DNA of 64,000 bases from Gemmata massiliana (GTDB lineage Bacteria > Planctomycetota > Planctomycetia > Gemmatales > Gemmataceae). The stretch spans positions 112,239-176,238 of the forward strand of contig HG799463.1 of the NCBI GenBank assembly GCA_000531095.1. The letters run 5' to 3'. Below, piece after piece: positions 40,622 to 47,129 of this stretch; the first letter of the stretch is position 1; the number at the start of each line of letters is the position of its first letter. Made by a program: the position numbers and the translations under genes. Below the pieces are notes generated by a model, which was not told where the DNA came from, ran no database searches, and saw nothing but the letters and a program-made list of their open reading frames with translations.

Positions 40622-43600
40622 ATGCCCCGCTCCGCAGTCGCGCTCGTGCGATTCGCCGCTCCGCCCACGTCTCGAACGACGGACGGGCAGTTGCTCCGCA
40701 TGTTCGTAGCCGCGCGCACCGATGACGCATTTGCCGAGTTGGTCCGGCGGCACGGGCCGATGGTGCTCGCAGTGTGTCACCGGGTGCTCGCAAACCCGCA
40801 CGACGCCGAAGACGCCTTCCAAGCCGTGTTCCTTGTACTGGCCCGCAAAGCGGGCGCGGTTCGCGGGTCGAACGTCGCGGGGTGGCTCTACAGCGTCGCG
40901 GTGCGAACCGCACGAGGAGTGCGCATCATGCGGGACCGGCGAAAGCACGTCGTCGCGAGTCAGAGTGCCAGAATCAGCGCCCCCACGATTCCGGACGACA
41001 CCCTCGTTGTCACGGAGCAAGCGGCCATCATCGACGAAGAACTGGCGAAGCTCCCCGAACTGCTGCGCGAAGCGCTCGTGCTGTGCGAACTGCACGGGCT
41101 GTCCCGCAGACAGGCCGCGCTCGAACTCGGGATCGCCGAAGGGACGCTCTCCAGCCGGCTCGCTGCGGCAAAGCGGAAGCTCGCAGAACGCCTCTCGGCC
41201 CGTGGAGTTACGGCCACCGCCGCACTAAGTATGCTGCTCTCTTCCGCCACAGTTTCGGCCGGCCTGCTCCGGACCACGACGGCCGCCGTTCGCGGCGCAG
41301 CGGGAAGTGTGGCGAACGCGGCCGCAGCCACGGTCCTCAAGGGGATGCTGTTCGACCAACTCCGGTCCGTTGCGCTCACTACCGTGCTACTCGCCACCGT
41401 TGTGTGCGGTGGGTACGCGATGACCGCCGCGCCCGGTTCCCCGCCAGAAGCAACGCCCACCGCTCCTGCACCACGACTCGCCGAAGACCCCGCCGCGCCA
41501 CTCGTGAAGCAGCTCGGCAGCGAAGACTTCAACGAGCGCGAGGTTGCAGATAAAGAGCTGCGCAAACTCGGACTCAAAGCCGAAGCCGCACTCAAAGTCG
41601 GACTGAAGGCCGAGAACCCCGAAGTCCGGGCGCGTTCTGCTGCGATCCTCACCGCCGTTCGCAAATCTGCACTCGAAGAACTGGCGAAGACCTTCGACCC
41701 CAAAGCCGACGGCGAGCCAACTCACCCCGTCTGGAAGCGCTACCGGGCCATTGCCGGAAACACCCCTGCGAGTCGCGAGTTGTTCGCCCTGATCGTTAAG
41801 CACGCGGACTGGCTGCACCGACTCGGCACCGCGGAAACCGGTCCCGAATCGGCCGAACAACAATACCGCGAAGCAATGGTTCAAATGGGCCGGCATTTCC
41901 TGGGCAACATGCGCGTGTTTTTCGAGATCCCAGTGTGGCCGTGTGATTACGGCCAAGAAACCGCGTATTTGATGCTCCTCGGCAGTTACCCCGGCACCGA
42001 AAAGGCGCGGTCCAAATGCGTAGGCGATGAGGCTGAACTGTTCTTGCACGGCGAGGGGCGCATCCATTTCGCACGCGGATTGGAACTCGGGCTTCAGGGT
42101 AAGACGCTCGAACAGAGCCCCAAGTTTCGCCCCGATACAGTTGATGCAGTGCCGGGAACGAATCGCGTTTTTGGAAAATTGCTCGCGTCGTGGCTCACCC
42201 ACCGGACCGAACCGGCCGTCATCTACTGCGCTCTCGAACTGGCCGTGAAATGGCGCACCGCAGACGTGTTGCCTGCGGCACGAACCATCGCGGCCGACAA
42301 GGAGCGCGGACCGGATGCCCGGTGCGCCGCCCTGCACGCCGTTGCCCAGTTCGGTACCATCGCAGACCTACCGCTATTCGCCCCGCTCTACGACGACCCA
42401 ACGGGTCTCGTCGTTCCCCCTCCGCCGTCGATCGGACTCGGCCCGCGCTCGCGCCGCATGCAGGTTCGCGACCACGCCGTCGGTCTCGCGCTCCTGCTGT
42501 GCGACCGAGACCCGTTCGAGTTCGGGTTCCCCTACGCGCAGAACCGTTTCGCCCGCGAGAACGGTCGCCCGGTCGTCGCGGTCTACGTCGGAGAGCCGTT
42601 CGGCTTCCCCAATGAGGAAGCACGGACCGCGGCTCACACCAAAGCCCGTGCGTTCCTCGACAAGCAAAAAGACGCACCGAAGCCGGACCCGGCCCACATG
42701 AAGCTCATCGAACGGCTCGGCAGCGAGGATTTCGCCGAGCGCGAGGCCGCACACAAGCAACTGAAAGAACTCGGCTCGAAAGCCCGAGCTGCCCTCGAAG
42801 CGGGGATCAAATCCGGGAACGCGGAGATCGTGAAGTGGTGCCGCGAACTGCTCGACCAACTGACTCGCGCCGAGTTCGACGCGACGCACTGGCCGCGGTT
42901 CGCAAAAGTGATCGGTGACGACAAGCCGAGTCGTGCCCTTTTCGAGCGCATCCGGAGTCTGCCGCGCAACGTCGAACTACTCGACGCGGTCGCAGCGAAC
43001 CCGAACGCAGCCGGCAAACACTACCACGATCGCTGGGCCGAACTGAACAAGACCGCGCGCGTCCCGATCGGGGTCGGCTCGTTCCAGCTCGTAGCCGCGC
43101 CGCTCGCGGACGTGGTGGGGTGGATGTATTTGGGCACCTTCCCCGGCGCCGAAGGAGCGTTCAACACCTCACACAGCATCGATTTTCTTCCCGGTGGGAA
43201 GCACTCAAACGACGCAATTGCGGCCGCACTCAAGGACAAAACGGTCGCGCCCGCAGTTCGTCAACTCGTCGGTAAGTGGACCGCGGCGCGGGTCGATTAC
43301 ACCGGGCGCGCGTATGGCTTTCAACTCGCGCTCGATTTCGGCATCGAAGAGGTGCTCTCGGCCGCTCGCGAAACCGTTCGCGCGAAAGTTAAAGACGACC
43401 CGTACCCCGGAAACACGGCGCAGAACGTCCGGCTCGCAATCCTCGTTGTTGGCAAGCTCGGCTCGAAGGACGATCTCCCGCTATTGGAAGTGCACTCAGC
43501 AAACGATACCCAGTGCGGCGTCTTCCTTCACGATCCGCCAGAGAAGCCGGGCGAACCGGTCTTACGCATCTACCGGCGCGCCGTTGAGGGCCAGGACACC

Positions 43601-43825
43601 ACGATCCAGGTGCGCGACGTGTCCACCGCGATGCGATTACACCTGCTCGGCCAGAACCCGGACGACTTCGGTTTCTACTGGCGCTGGCCCCACGGCTCGG
43701 ATGCAGGGAAGCGCATGGAACCCGACAACCGATTCAGCCCGTACTCAATCGGGTTCCTGCGAAAGACCGACCGTACCGCAGCGCACAAGAAAGCTCAGGA
43801 GTGGTTCGACAAACAGAAGAAATGA
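40622..43825 (+). CDS. giant ECF sigma factor with duplicated extracytoplasmic sensor module
   Basis: This 1067-residue protein begins with ECF regions: region 2 at ~25-95 (VRRHGPMVLAVCHRVLAN, AEDAFQAVFLVLARKAG) and region 4 at ~135-195 (LPELLREALVLCELHGLS, IAEGTLSSRLAAAKRKLAE). A membrane helix follows at ~255 (SVALTTVLLATVVCGGYAM). The outer part is two copies of one module of about 400 residues, each opening with LGSEDFxERE-type HEAT/PBS-lyase-like helices (residues ~294 and ~693) and ending with repeated L-x-DRDPFEFG / LLGQNPDDFGFYWRWP-type segments. The layout is a one-piece transmembrane sigma factor; the ligand is unknown. Confidence 0.88.
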   Translation: MPRSAVALVRFAAPPTSRTTDGQLLRMFVAARTDDAFAELVRRHGPMVLAVCHRVLANPHDAEDAFQAVFLVLARKAGAVRGSNVAGWLYSVAVRTARGVRIMRDRRKHVVASQSARISAPTIPDDTLVVTEQAAIIDEELAKLPELLREALVLCELHGLSRRQAALELGIAEGTLSSRLAAAKRKLAERLSARGVTATAALSMLLSSATVSAGLLRTTTAAVRGAAGSVANAAAATVLKGMLFDQLRSVALTTVLLATVVCGGYAMTAAPGSPPEATPTAPAPRLAEDPAAPLVKQLGSEDFNEREVADKELRKLGLKAEAALKVGLKAENPEVRARSAAILTAVRKSALEELAKTFDPKADGEPTHPVWKRYRAIAGNTPASRELFALIVKHADWLHRLGTAETGPESAEQQYREAMVQMGRHFLGNMRVFFEIPVWPCDYGQETAYLMLLGSYPGTEKARSKCVGDEAELFLHGEGRIHFARGLELGLQGKTLEQSPKFRPDTVDAVPGTNRVFGKLLASWLTHRTEPAVIYCALELAVKWRTADVLPAARTIAADKERGPDARCAALHAVAQFGTIADLPLFAPLYDDPTGLVVPPPPSIGLGPRSRRMQVRDHAVGLALLLCDRDPFEFGFPYAQNRFARENGRPVVAVYVGEPFGFPNEEARTAAHTKARAFLDKQKDAPKPDPAHMKLIERLGSEDFAEREAAHKQLKELGSKARAALEAGIKSGNAEIVKWCRELLDQLTRAEFDATHWPRFAKVIGDDKPSRALFERIRSLPRNVELLDAVAANPNAAGKHYHDRWAELNKTARVPIGVGSFQLVAAPLADVVGWMYLGTFPGAEGAFNTSHSIDFLPGGKHSNDAIAAALKDKTVAPAVRQLVGKWTAARVDYTGRAYGFQLALDFGIEEVLSAARETVRAKVKDDPYPGNTAQNVRLAILVVGKLGSKDDLPLLEVHSANDTQCGVFLHDPPEKPGEPVLRIYRRAVEGQDTTIQVRDVSTAMRLHLLGQNPDDFGFYWRWPHGSDAGKRMEPDNRFSPYSIGFLRKTDRTAAHKKAQEWFDKQKK

Positions 43826-43844: not shown

Positions 43845-45866
43845 TCAGCGCGTCCACTGGTCCCGAATGCGATCGAACTCGCCGTCGTCTTTCATGGCCC
43901 GGAGCGCGTCCTCGATCGCTTTTCGGAGCGCATGAGCTTCCAACCGAAGCGCGATCCCGAGTGGCTCTACATCGAGCGCGCAGCCGGCGGTGTCGACAAC
44001 GATCAGTTTGCGCTCCCGGCTCGCGTACTGGGCGATCAACTGGTGATCCAAGGCGAGGTCGGCAGTCCCAGACTGAACGGCAGCGAACGGCTCGGGGGAA
44101 GCGCGGTAGCGCACGATCTCTTTAACTCCCAGCCCCGCGCGCTGCAAGCGCTCGATTGTGTCGTGTGCGGTCGTGCCTTCTTGCACTGCGATGACCTTAC
44201 CGACCAAGTCGCGCGGACTTGTGGGGCGCGGTCCGGGGCGCGCGGTGAACACGAGCGGGTCGCGCGCGTACTCGATGAACGCGACCTGCCGTTTCCGCTC
44301 ATCGGTGATCGTGGTGGCCGAAAGGAGAACGTCCAGGCGCCGGGTTTGAAGTTCGCGGTTCATCCCGGCCCAATCCCAGTACAACTCGTGGTGCTCCGCC
44401 TCCACACCCAATCGCCCCGCAATCGCGCGGGCCAGTTCCACGTCGAACCCCGTGAGCTGTCCGTCTTTCTTAAAGGCGTAGGGCGGACAGTTCGGGTCGA
44501 TGCCGACCACCAGTTTGTGAGAGCGCTGCACGCGCCAGAGTGAATCGTCCTTGGGTGGGAGTATGATCCCGAGTGTCACGAGCGCGACGAGGCTGAAGAA
44601 ACCGGTAAAGCCCGCGATTCGTGCCAGCACCGGGTTACGCCGACACCGACGACGGAATCGCCCCCAGGCGCCGTGGACCTTCACATGGGCCAGCGGCTTA
44701 CCGGCAAGGAAGTTGGCCAGATCGTCTGCAAGTGCCAGAGCGGAGGGGTAACGGTAACTCGGGTCTTTCTCCAAACACTTGAGACAAACCGATTCCAGTT
44801 CCTTCGGGACCGAAGGACAGAACGAGCGCGGGGCGGGGGCTTCTTCGCTTTCAACCTTGCGCAAAAGGGTTGCCGTGGTTTCGGCAACGAAGGGCACGCG
44901 CCCGGTGAGTAGCTCGAACAAGATCACCCCGAGCGCGTAAACATCAGCCGCCGGCCCGACATTCCGGACGTCCCCGCGGGCCTGCTCGGGCGCCATGTAG
45001 CTGGGGCTGCCCATGACCACGCCGGTCAGCGTCAAGCTCGAACCGACGTCGGCCACTTTCGCCAGCCCGAAGTCGGCGATCTTCGGTTCGCCCGCTTCCG
45101 TGAGGAGCACGTTCCCCGGTTTCAGGTCGCGGTGGACGATCCCGCGCTCGTGAGCATACGCGACCGCCCGCGCGAGCTGCTCGACCAACCGCACCGCGGC
45201 GCGGAACTGTTGCGGCGAACCGTTGAGCTTCTGTGCGAGGCTCCCGCCCTCGACGAACTCCAGAACGAAATAGGGGAGTTGATCGGCCTCACCGATTTCG
45301 TGGATCTGCACGATGTGAGAGTGGCGCAGTCGGGCGATCGCGTGCGCTTCGGCCCGGAACCGGACTTGTTGCCCCTCGTCCGCGTGCGGTCCGGCCAGGA
45401 TCATCTTTATCGCGACGGAACGGTTCAGTTTGACTTGTCGCGCCTTGTACACGACCCCCATTGCTCCGCGACCCAACTCGCCGAGCAGTTCGTAGCCGGG
45501 AATTTTCGCCCGCATTTGCCCGGTCACCGTACCGGTGCTAGCGCCTTCAAGCAGCGTTGGTGCTTCTACTGGCGTGCCGGTAGTGGCGGTGAAAACCGCG
45601 GTGATTAGCTCGTCTCGGTCCGGGAAGCGCTGGCGGTACTCGTCCCGGTCTGGTTTTTCGCCGTTCTGAGTGCGGTAGTGCAGTTCCAGTAGCAGTAACT
45701 CGCGAAAGAGTACCGACCGGTCGATTTCCGGAGCGCGTGCCAGAAGCTCTTCGATGGCGGGGCGATGGCCCGTGCGCCAGGCGTCCTCGAACATGTCGCA
45801 CGCACGCTCCACCCGGAGCAGCCGCCCGCGTGCGTCGTCATCGTCCCACGATAAGGTAGCGCTCAC
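43845..45866 (-). CDS. receptor Ser/Thr kinase with periplasmic amino-acid-binding-type domain
   Basis: GTG 45866 overlaps the upstream sigma factor stop (GTGA), so 673 residues are translated by coupling; an ORF extends to 46037 but only as shadow. Kinase domain ~124-385: LGELGRGAMGVVYKAR, AIKMIL (Lys), HRDLKPGNVLL, IADFGLAKV, SYMAPEQA. A membrane helix at ~428-448 precedes an SBP_bac_3-type domain (~460-673): LVVGIDPNCPPYAFKKDGQL, LTGFDVELARAIAGRLG, DVLLSATTITDERKRQV. This is the fold that binds amino acids for ABC uptake. Presumably the outer domain senses a solute and signals through the kinase. Confidence 0.92.
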   Translation of the reverse strand: MSATLSWDDDDARGRLLRVERACDMFEDAWRTGHRPAIEELLARAPEIDRSVLFRELLLLELHYRTQNGEKPDRDEYRQRFPDRDELITAVFTATTGTPVEAPTLLEGASTGTVTGQMRAKIPGYELLGELGRGAMGVVYKARQVKLNRSVAIKMILAGPHADEGQQVRFRAEAHAIARLRHSHIVQIHEIGEADQLPYFVLEFVEGGSLAQKLNGSPQQFRAAVRLVEQLARAVAYAHERGIVHRDLKPGNVLLTEAGEPKIADFGLAKVADVGSSLTLTGVVMGSPSYMAPEQARGDVRNVGPAADVYALGVILFELLTGRVPFVAETTATLLRKVESEEAPAPRSFCPSVPKELESVCLKCLEKDPSYRYPSALALADDLANFLAGKPLAHVKVHGAWGRFRRRCRRNPVLARIAGFTGFFSLVALVTLGIILPPKDDSLWRVQRSHKLVVGIDPNCPPYAFKKDGQLTGFDVELARAIAGRLGVEAEHHELYWDWAGMNRELQTRRLDVLLSATTITDERKRQVAFIEYARDPLVFTARPGPRPTSPRDLVGKVIAVQEGTTAHDTIERLQRAGLGVKEIVRYRASPEPFAAVQSGTADLALDHQLIAQYASRERKLIVVDTAGCALDVEPLGIALRLEAHALRKAIEDALRAMKDDGEFDRIRDQWTR

Positions 45867-46468
45867 GGCGGAAGCTCCTGCCCCCAAAGGGTACGGATCA
45901 CACGCAACTTCCGCTCCACGCTCCCCAGTGATCGCCCGAGTTTGGCGGCGATCTCCTCGTTCGTGTGCCCCTCCATCTTCCAAACGGCCACCGCGCGCAA
46001 TTCCGGATCGTCCAGTATCTCCAGGAGCCGCCGACACTCCTCGGCCACCTCGACCACCACCCCCGGTTCCGGTTCGCGATCGATGAGTTCGGCCAACACA
46101 GTATCGTCGCCATTCGCGTCAGAAGCGCTGAGCGCAATCGGCTGCGCACGCCCGCCGCGCTTGAGGGCGTTCTCGCGTTTCAGGAGATTCGCGGTTTTGC
46201 GGACGGTGAGGACCAACAGAATTTGCCACAAGTCGTCCCGGTCGAGGAGCCGCGGGAAGCGCCCCTCCACCGCGCCGCGACAGAAATTGTCGAACGCACT
46301 GAGAGCGGCGTCTTCTTCGTCCGCGGCCCGCCGCGGTGCGGACCCGAGTTTTTTCCGCGCGAGGCTCACGAGGCGCTCGTAGTACGCCTCCCAGAGTTTC
46401 TGAACGGCCCCTTCGTCGCCGGCTCGGAGCGGGCCGAGAAAGCGAGTAATGGACCCCTCAGCGGACAT
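45863..46468 (-). CDS. ECF-type sigma factor coupled to Ser/Thr kinase
   Basis: The 201-residue protein has sigma region 2 (VQKLWEAYYERLVSLARKKL, then DNFCRGAVEGRFPRLLDRDD) and region 4 (LRAVAVWKMEGHTNEEIAAK, GRSLGSVERKLRVIRTLW). This is the planctomycete type repeatedly found directly upstream of Ser/Thr kinases. The stop codon overlaps the kinase GTG, so both are made together, suggesting that the kinase controls the sigma factor, perhaps by phosphorylation; there is no anti-sigma gene. A possible sigma70 promoter lies at 46516-46544. Confidence 0.9.
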   Translation of the reverse strand: MSAEGSITRFLGPLRAGDEGAVQKLWEAYYERLVSLARKKLGSAPRRAADEEDAALSAFDNFCRGAVEGRFPRLLDRDDLWQILLVLTVRKTANLLKRENALKRGGRAQPIALSASDANGDDTVLAELIDREPEPGVVVEVAEECRRLLEILDDPELRAVAVWKMEGHTNEEIAAKLGRSLGSVERKLRVIRTLWGQELPP

Positions 46469-46655: not shown

Positions 46656-47129
46656 ATGATAACCGCGGCCACGATCCTACTTGCGTTCGCACTCGCCTTC
46701 CCCGTCGGAACGCTCGTCGAGTACGTCCTCCACCGATGGCTCCTCCACGCCCGGAGCCGCACGTTCGTATCGCACCGCCACCGGATGCACCACAAATCGA
46801 ACGAAGCCGATACGTTGTGGGGCGATTTCCGCGATTTCTCGCTCGGGGCCGTTCCGTTCTGCTGGCTGGGGTTCCTGCACTCCCCGGTCGCCGGCATCGG
46901 GTTCCTTCTGGGTGGTGCGGCTTACGTGTTCGTGTTGGCTCTGGTCCACAAACTGTCCCACGAGCGCCCGCAGCTCGTGTTCTGGATGCGCCCGACCTCG
47001 CACGAACTGCACCACGGCGAAACCCCGCGCTACAACTTCGGCATCGTCACCCGGTTCTGGGACCGCGTGTTTGGAACCTTCGCCGATCAAATGCCCGCGC
47101 CCCGCTACCTGCGTCGAGGGGGCAAGTAA
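46656..47129 (+). CDS. fatty-acid hydroxylase/sterol desaturase-superfamily protein
   Basis: A 157-residue membrane protein with di-iron histidine clusters: EYVLHRWLLH, SHRHRMHHKSNE and LSHERPQ, TSHELHHGETP. Membrane helices lie at ~5-25 and ~65-100. The short size and His order resemble small bacterial lipid hydroxylases or CrtZ-like carotene hydroxylases rather than full-length sterol desaturases. The stop codon overlaps the ATG of the CarF-type desaturase by one base, so both act in the same lipid pathway. Confidence 0.88.
   Translation: MITAATILLAFALAFPVGTLVEYVLHRWLLHARSRTFVSHRHRMHHKSNEADTLWGDFRDFSLGAVPFCWLGFLHSPVAGIGFLLGGAAYVFVLALVHKLSHERPQLVFWMRPTSHELHHGETPRYNFGIVTRFWDRVFGTFADQMPAPRYLRRGGK

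Follow-up and report, generated by a model that had tools for sequence, protein, structure and literature searches.

Introduction

In group ECF43 of the extracytoplasmic function (ECF) sigma factors, the sigma factor is phosphorylated by the neighbouring kinase (PMC8999054, section 3.4; PMC13147305). According to section 3.4 of PMC8999054, these proteins lack the acidic DAED motif and gain its charge by phosphorylation of a Thr; in the pairs EcfP/PknT and EcfK/PknS, the activating phosphate is placed in region 2.2 by the relevant parts of PMC8999054 and PMC13147305. Here we describe a gene pair of Gemmata massiliana, located in a stretch of 64,000 nucleotides (contig HG799463.1, positions 112,239 to 176,238; hereafter the window) of a genome of 9.27 Mb in 22 contigs. 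As in EcfP/PknT and EcfK/PknS, a Hanks-type kinase is encoded beside its own ECF sigma factor; the kinase carries an outer solute-binding protein (SBP) domain. Whereas ECF43 proteins lack the acidic DAED, the window retains an intact motif, DEED, and the residue proposed for phosphorylation lies at a later position, that of a Glu.

Groups ECF59, ECF61, ECF62 and ECF217 are also associated with Ser/Thr kinases and include planctomycete examples, as stated in part of PMC8999054. As in the window, an ECF sigma gene adjoins a Ser/Thr kinase gene, the product having sigma2 and sigma4 regions (of PF07638 type here). The same part of that review says that kinase-paired groups other than ECF43 keep the acidic motif, as the window does, and proposes phosphorylation for them; it mentions neither an SBP sensor nor an N-terminal module, both seen in the window, for ECF59, ECF61, ECF62 or ECF217. 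A Ser switch is already in print, since another review attributes the activation of ECF59 and the former ECF60 to a Ser, which one not being specified in the passage concerned (PMC8103513). A Ser switch tied to a module of the kinase was not met in the sections of the literature on kinase-paired ECF sigma factors that we covered.

The fusion of a solute-binding domain to a kinase is not new in itself, because a 2005 listing includes a Streptomyces coelicolor kinase that carries a solute-binding domain of the Glu/Gln type, together with an ANF-receptor kinase of Nostoc (PMC1262709). These are Ser/Thr kinases fused to a solute-binding domain, like that of the window; unlike the window, they have no sigma factor noted in the relevant part of that paper. 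In the GlnH-GlnX-PknG system of actinobacteria, an amino-acid SBP is proposed to control a Ser/Thr kinase; the account in the cited part involves three separate proteins and no sigma factor, whereas the window combines sensor and kinase in one polypeptide (PMC6069109). The receptor tyrosine kinases of invertebrates with a Venus-flytrap domain outside, one transmembrane helix and a kinase inside have the layout seen in the window; according to the part of PMC2680970 that describes them they are animal tyrosine kinases, and the likeness is an analogy only. WD40 or TPR domains have been described in planctomycete kinases (parts of PMC11032199 and PMC8567305); PMC11032199 also gives 98 to 140 kinases for Gemmataceae, a range which, set against the kinase number of the genome, points to this family for the window. 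Among the open-licence papers that our searches listed, we saw none describing a sigma factor paired with an SBP-kinase.

The gene pair and the proposed signal chain

A preliminary description of the window, made from the letters alone, had presented the two genes as a candidate one-operon chain leading from a solute through the kinase and phosphorylation of the sigma factor to transcription. Translation and Pfam matches show that its coordinates are correct.

45863 to 46468, minus strand: ECF sigma factor of 201 residues, sigma2 and sigma4 only (PF07638, E 9.5e-38, residues 6-198)
43845 to 45866, minus strand: receptor-type Ser/Thr kinase of 673 residues with a GTG start (translation and Pfam)
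45863 to 45866, minus strand: GTGA, in which the kinase start GTG overlaps the sigma stop TGA (direct reading)

The sigma gene ends with this GTGA, which contains both the GTG of the kinase and the TGA of the sigma factor, as the preliminary description had noted; in addition, an AGGAG sits 8 bases ahead of the GTG. The sigma gene also lies directly ahead of the kinase gene in three genomes of the same genus (G009, G011 and G015), with overlaps of 4, 4 and 8 bases.

The frequency of this arrangement was estimated in a wider sigma family. At E <= 1e-25, relatives of the sigma factor are encoded by 42 of 95 genomes from the taxonomic family and by 31 of 392 genomes of a phylum sample. We examined 79 of the 147 other listed sigma places which, together with the window and three relatives, gave 85 sigma frames from 83 genes, two genes being counted twice (L143 repeats one of L158, kinase-linked; L157 contains the L123 gene in truncated form, unlinked). 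For 60 of the 85 frames, a kinase gene follows on the same strand at a distance of no more than 1.5 kb. Omission of L143 and of four frames in which the kinase domain is followed by fewer than 30 residues (L146, L147, L170 and L172) leaves 55 pairs. The same 4-base overlap with a start codon is present in 31 of these, window included, and in 28 of 51 once the four pairs with an SBP domain (that of the window and those of its three relatives) are removed; overlaps of 1-15 bases of any kind are present in 42 of 55. Among the linked genes, TGA is the stop codon of 54 of 59 sigma genes, and the kinase is in the matching frame in 37 of 59 cases. The overlap is therefore the norm of the sigma-kinase family (31/55) and was rejected as a special feature of this locus. 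Of the translational coupling proposed earlier the overlap stands; the coupling itself is deduced from the overlap only. Since the overlap is shared by most pairs and the outer domains differ, the sensor is the variable part.

Both genes are under purifying selection. The ratio of non-synonymous to synonymous substitution rates (dN/dS) in comparison with L016 is 0.06 for the sigma factor, 0.08 for the kinase domain, 0.09 for the SBP domain and 0.13 for the N-terminal module of the kinase; in comparisons with L016 and L017, the values for these four parts range from 0.06 to 0.30.

The pair, its overlap, its domains, the pattern in the family and the conservation of Ser57 in the sigma factor are features of the sequences themselves. 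From them we infer each of the further steps, namely ligand, transmembrane signalling, docking, phosphorylation and effect on RNA polymerase. In the periplasm, the outer SBP domain would bind a small carboxylate that may be an amino acid, and the closure of its two lobes would be passed through the single transmembrane helix to the cytoplasmic Hanks-type kinase. The N-terminal helical module of the kinase would hold the sigma factor, and the kinase would phosphorylate the docked protein, with Ser57 in region 2.2 as the most likely site. The phosphate would restore a negative charge at a place where canonical ECF sigma factors have a Glu, favouring binding to core RNA polymerase and thereby promoter choice, and the overlapping start would keep the two proteins made together. 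We consider this whole chain moderately probable. It is the best hypothesis for the locus in view of the pair with its 4-8-base overlap in three other genomes, the sigma-kinase linkage in 60 of 85 frames and the conserved Ser at a contact with core RNA polymerase. The three-part chain is not obligatory, because an SBP-kinase fusion exists elsewhere with no sigma gene beside it (L019/L054, see below).

Ser57 in region 2.2 of the sigma factor

46298 to 46321, minus strand: region 2.2 motif D50-E-E-D53-A-A-L-S57 (family alignment and alignment with sigma-H 6in7_B)

The profile of the sigma family matches the solved sigma-H (6in7_B) over its length (E 7e-5), with weaker matches to SigE and SigW; the top-scoring chain is a designed repeat protein, matched through short repeated pieces alone. 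The alignment with 6in7_B pairs Leu56-Ser57 with the Gln-Glu of the core-binding motif DxxDxxQE. A Ser or Thr is present at position 57 in 56 of the 60 kinase-linked frames. A switch of the ECF43 type, in which uncharged residues including a Thr stand in place of the acidic DAED, was rejected, DEED being present and D53 conserved in 60 of 60 linked frames.

The genome of the window has 13 Sigma70_ECF genes. Three of them precede a kinase with the N-terminal module (module-kinase), and those three alone have a Ser at the equivalent of position 57; six further genes have a downstream kinase that lacks the module. This pattern was noticed before it was tested on other genomes. The test set comprised 60 sigma genes from seven other genomes (60 of 150 matches, E 1.3e-19 to 3.3e-7, covering at least 150 model positions); the cut excluded the sigma family to which the protein of the window belongs, as well as the strongest PF07638 group, and the module was counted at E <= 0.01. 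Of 22 sigma factors whose gene adjoins that of a module-kinase, 18 have Ser or Thr (12 of the 16 in co-directional and all 6 in divergent order); of the other 38, 7 do (Fisher p 2e-6, uncorrected for relatedness). When the module is counted at E under 1e-4, a cut chosen afterwards, 15 of 16 test sigma factors have a Ser.

Several observations weigh against a phosphorylated Ser57 as the switch. Ser or Thr at this position is just as common where no kinase lies directly downstream (23 of 25 frames), and five linked frames of the family have another residue, neither Ser nor Thr in four of them. DEED being intact, the unphosphorylated sigma factor might already bind RNA polymerase. In the test set, 4 of the 22 module-paired sigma factors have an Asp (three) or a Glu (one) at the place of the Ser. 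On the sigma tree we count five changes of the Ser and seven of the module, and the link between them may be largely one of clade; a test on independent pairs found too few pairs to have any power, with hardly any pair in the opposite direction. As a pattern in the sequences the Ser-module link is real, and it may stem largely from one ancestral clade.

One sub-group of module-paired sigma factors (L298, L326 and L331) has an Asp in place of the Ser (DF[AV]QDVW), as if permanently charged.

The kinase and its N-terminal module

45579 to 45848, minus strand: N-terminal helical module, residues about 7-96, a candidate sigma-docking part (alignment and AlphaFold2)
44745 to 45494, minus strand: protein kinase domain, residues 125-374 (PF00069, 5.8e-54; VAIK, HRDLKPGN, DFG and APE in the translation)
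44562 to 44618, minus strand: transmembrane helix predicted at residues 417-435 (19 residues with a mean hydropathy of 2.2, after an Arg-rich stretch)
43851 to 44513, minus strand: extracytoplasmic SBP_bac_3 domain, residues 452-672 (PF00497, 2.6e-28)

The catalytic motifs of a Hanks-type Ser/Thr kinase are complete. The Arg-rich segment WGRFRRRCRRNPVLAR precedes the sole hydrophobic stretch, residues 417-435, and by the positive-inside rule the SBP domain is placed outside; the predicted topology is thus one transmembrane helix with an outer SBP domain. An external SBP_bac_3 domain in place of PASTA, as first described, is borne out by the PF00497 match, the positive-inside prediction and the Pfam scan. 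Assignment to the PASTA kinases (NF033483) was rejected, the score being 296.7 against a cut-off of 450 bits and PASTA models being absent from the Pfam matches.

No Pfam match was found in the approximately 120 residues ahead of the kinase domain. This segment contains a module of about 95 residues that can be aligned in 32 sigma-paired kinases, with Cys23, Glu27 and Arg65 invariant. AlphaFold2 predicts five helices, with block confidence scores (pLDDT) of 82-95 for residues 11-90. A Foldseek search returned no known fold at E <= 0.001 (best E 2.6), and VIA-align against 189 chains gave no Z of 5 or more, which permits no inference on the novelty of the fold. The model of the full-length kinase, from a three-row alignment, has a pLDDT of only 48 and was not used. 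The module, shared by sigma-paired kinases, would be the part that docks the sigma factor.

The same module could serve a different control, in which Ser57 is not phosphorylated at all: the kinase might act as a membrane anti-sigma anchor that holds the sigma factor through the module and releases it on autophosphorylation, or it might phosphorylate another site (Thr8, Thr88, Thr169, Ser183 or the linker). In favour of such control, the module is predicted to form a helical domain of its own in a protein tethered to the membrane, DEED is intact and Ser57 is also present in unlinked frames; the positions of Thr8, Thr88, Thr169 and Ser183 are Ser or Thr in more than 80% of cases, and the linker sites of EcfK are phosphorylated too, as reported in part of PMC13147305. 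These points are countered by the occurrence in other genomes of a Ser at the Glu place together with the module; the module also lacks a match to any known fold that would suggest an anti-sigma factor, a result still compatible with one (Foldseek, above). We regard control without Ser57 phosphorylation as rather unlikely, although it is the most serious competitor of the Ser57 switch.

The SBP domain and its presumed ligand

The closest solved relative of the SBP domain is AncQR (4zv1), a reconstructed amino-acid-binding protein (1.6e-29 over 220 residues), and the other close ones are amino-acid SBPs. The motif TITDER (TIT-x-x-R), with the Arg and Thr of the first lobe, aligns with the ABC-transporter relatives and is kept in the four fusions of the genus, as is a Gly-Thr-Thr of the second lobe. 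We take the Arg and the Thr or Ser of this motif to hold the carboxylate of the ligand, and the Asp column of family 3 SBPs presumably holds the alpha-amino group (the ammonium site). In the four fusions of the genus this column has a His, while L019 and most ABC relatives have the Asp. There is an Asp one residue before the His column, so the register of the alignment could shift. The ligand is likely to be a small carboxylate, and may possibly be an amino acid. The amino-acid-binding type proposed earlier holds as regards the PF00497 family and the carboxylate residues; binding of an amino acid is uncertain and unproven because the usual ammonium-binding Asp is a His in four of five fusions.

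The His could also mean that ligand binding has been lost and that the outer domain is a docking or envelope-binding lobe rather than a small-molecule receptor. The retention in the four fusions of the first-lobe Arg and Thr and the second-lobe Gly-Thr-Thr, and purifying selection on the SBP domain (dN/dS 0.09, 0.16 and 0.16 in three comparisons), make such a loss improbable.

The sole other SBP_bac_3 gene found in the genome (L002, G000 contig 4, 946311-949991) encodes an SBP fused to a seeming ABC permease; an ATPase-like frame adjoins it (by eye).

Distribution of the SBP-kinase fusion

Among the 95 genomes of the family, nine have SBP matches at E <= 1e-8 and five of these, window included, are kinase fusions. 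Over the SBP domain the others match the window at 95% (G009), 89% (G011) and 60% (G015) within the genus, and at 39% in G065, of another genus. A class sample of 397 genomes yielded the same five fusions and three SBPs with no kinase in frame. In the phylum sample, 92 of the 392 genomes have SBP matches at E <= 1e-10 and only the window is a kinase fusion among the best 30 loci. Outside the five fusions, no kinase was found in the same frame as the SBP in 42 SBP frames (from 43 loci). A collection of named genomes, from which near relatives of the window may be absent, was scanned with two short peptide patterns. Of the nine loci obtained, two encode a fusion, namely PNLP01000081.1 (isolate DS2.012, the contig of G015) and VGZI01000266.1 (the contig of G065). 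The search in other planctomycetes suggested as a check in the preliminary description thus gave three genomes of the same genus with the sigma pair, and the G065 fusion, which lacks it.

The G065 kinase (L019/L054) has neither a sigma gene beside it nor the N-terminal module, which weakens the case for a fixed connection between sensor and sigma factor. Its SBP domain groups with the four SBPs of the genus, as their sister (support 98/95), and its kinase domain falls elsewhere. A single origin of the fusion was rejected when the five kinases were held together (approximately unbiased test, p-AU 0.028, for a group named after the tree had been seen). Because the SBP domain of G065 joins those of the genus while its kinase domain belongs elsewhere, the sensor has probably moved between kinases. 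The G065 kinase domain groups with sigma-paired kinases other than that of the window.

The wider family of sigma-kinase pairs

Pfam sensor models were searched in 54 kinases, L144 being left out in addition. A likely transmembrane helix follows the kinase domain in 47 of the 54, and WD40-type propeller models match 24 of them; an SBP domain is present only in the window and in L016-L018. The gene pair is accordingly of a common planctomycete kind, and an SBP sensor on it is rare.

The module is frequently associated with these sigma factors. Of 100 family sigma genes, 62 have a module-kinase co-directional downstream and seven have one in divergent order, among the 150 module hits listed. When the 50 best module hits in the 95 family genomes are considered, 40 are found no more than 1.5 kb downstream of a family sigma gene, a figure biased by the profile, which was built from sigma-paired kinases. 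The 150 listed hits include 61 co-directional with, seven divergent from and one upstream of a family sigma gene. The module occurs in five genes of the source genome, three of which follow a sigma gene; beside the other two, no sigma gene was apparent by eye among same-strand frames of at least 130 residues.

Evolutionary distances were compared in 50 pairs. Those of the sigma factor correlate with those of the kinase domain (r 0.48) and of the module (r 0.31), both above all 2000 of 2000 permutations; the correlation between kinase domain and module is lower (r 0.16, 53 of 2000 permutations as high). Two results speak against the proposed chain: 81 of the 150 listed module hits have no nearby sigma gene of this family (other sigma families not being counted), and the nearest neighbours by sigma factor and by kinase agree in just 8 of the 50 pairs. 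The 25 of 85 sigma frames with no kinase just downstream and the G065 kinase with no sigma gene would suit mere co-transcription, the kinase having other targets and the sigma factor being regulated at synthesis, but this is made quite improbable by the recurrence of the pairing in co-directional and divergent order, the correlated distances and the overlap in most pairs.

In one locus (L158, G020 contig 65), two family sigma genes in tandem are followed by one kinase gene.

Neighbouring genes

Genes for FA_hydroxylase (46656-47129) and Lipid_desat (PF10520, 47126-47824) lie on the plus strand, divergent to the sigma gene. The arrangement is the same in G009 and G011, and in G015 a relative of FA_hydroxylase (50%) lies about 3.4 kb upstream. 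These two genes are possible members of the regulon.

On the other side, convergent with the kinase gene, 40622-43825 (plus strand) encodes a 1067-residue protein that has sigma70 regions 2 and 4 in its N-terminal part, as well as a hydrophobic stretch. Its HEAT-like part is just below the Pfam cut-off; the protein is a sigma factor fused to a long C-terminal part of its own.

Discussion

Comparison of the pairs indicates a large planctomycete family in which a similar sigma-kinase chassis is combined with interchangeable outer or repeat domains, the locus in the window being one of its sensor variants. A more general proposal, which we put forward tentatively and think less probable than the chain at this locus, is that a standard chassis, made of a sigma-docking module, a Hanks-type kinase and a transmembrane helix, directly phosphorylates a dedicated ECF sigma factor on a Ser that replaces the core-binding Glu, different sensors having been swapped onto it.

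The stimuli of bacterial Ser/Thr kinases are described as an outstanding question in part of PMC6069109, and section 3.4 of PMC8999054 states that kinase-paired ECF groups beyond ECF43 still need characterization. The path from ligand to promoter is testable here in one operon, because the sensor belongs to a family that can be screened for ligands by thermal shift, the sigma gene adjoins it, and the one candidate phosphosite and the candidate docking module can both be mutated. What is learned here would also inform the sister pairs whose sensors are WD40 domains or unknown. If the proposed mechanism is true, the SBP version would be a bacterial receptor kinase in which one polypeptide wires a diffusible small ligand to a switch of promoter specificity.

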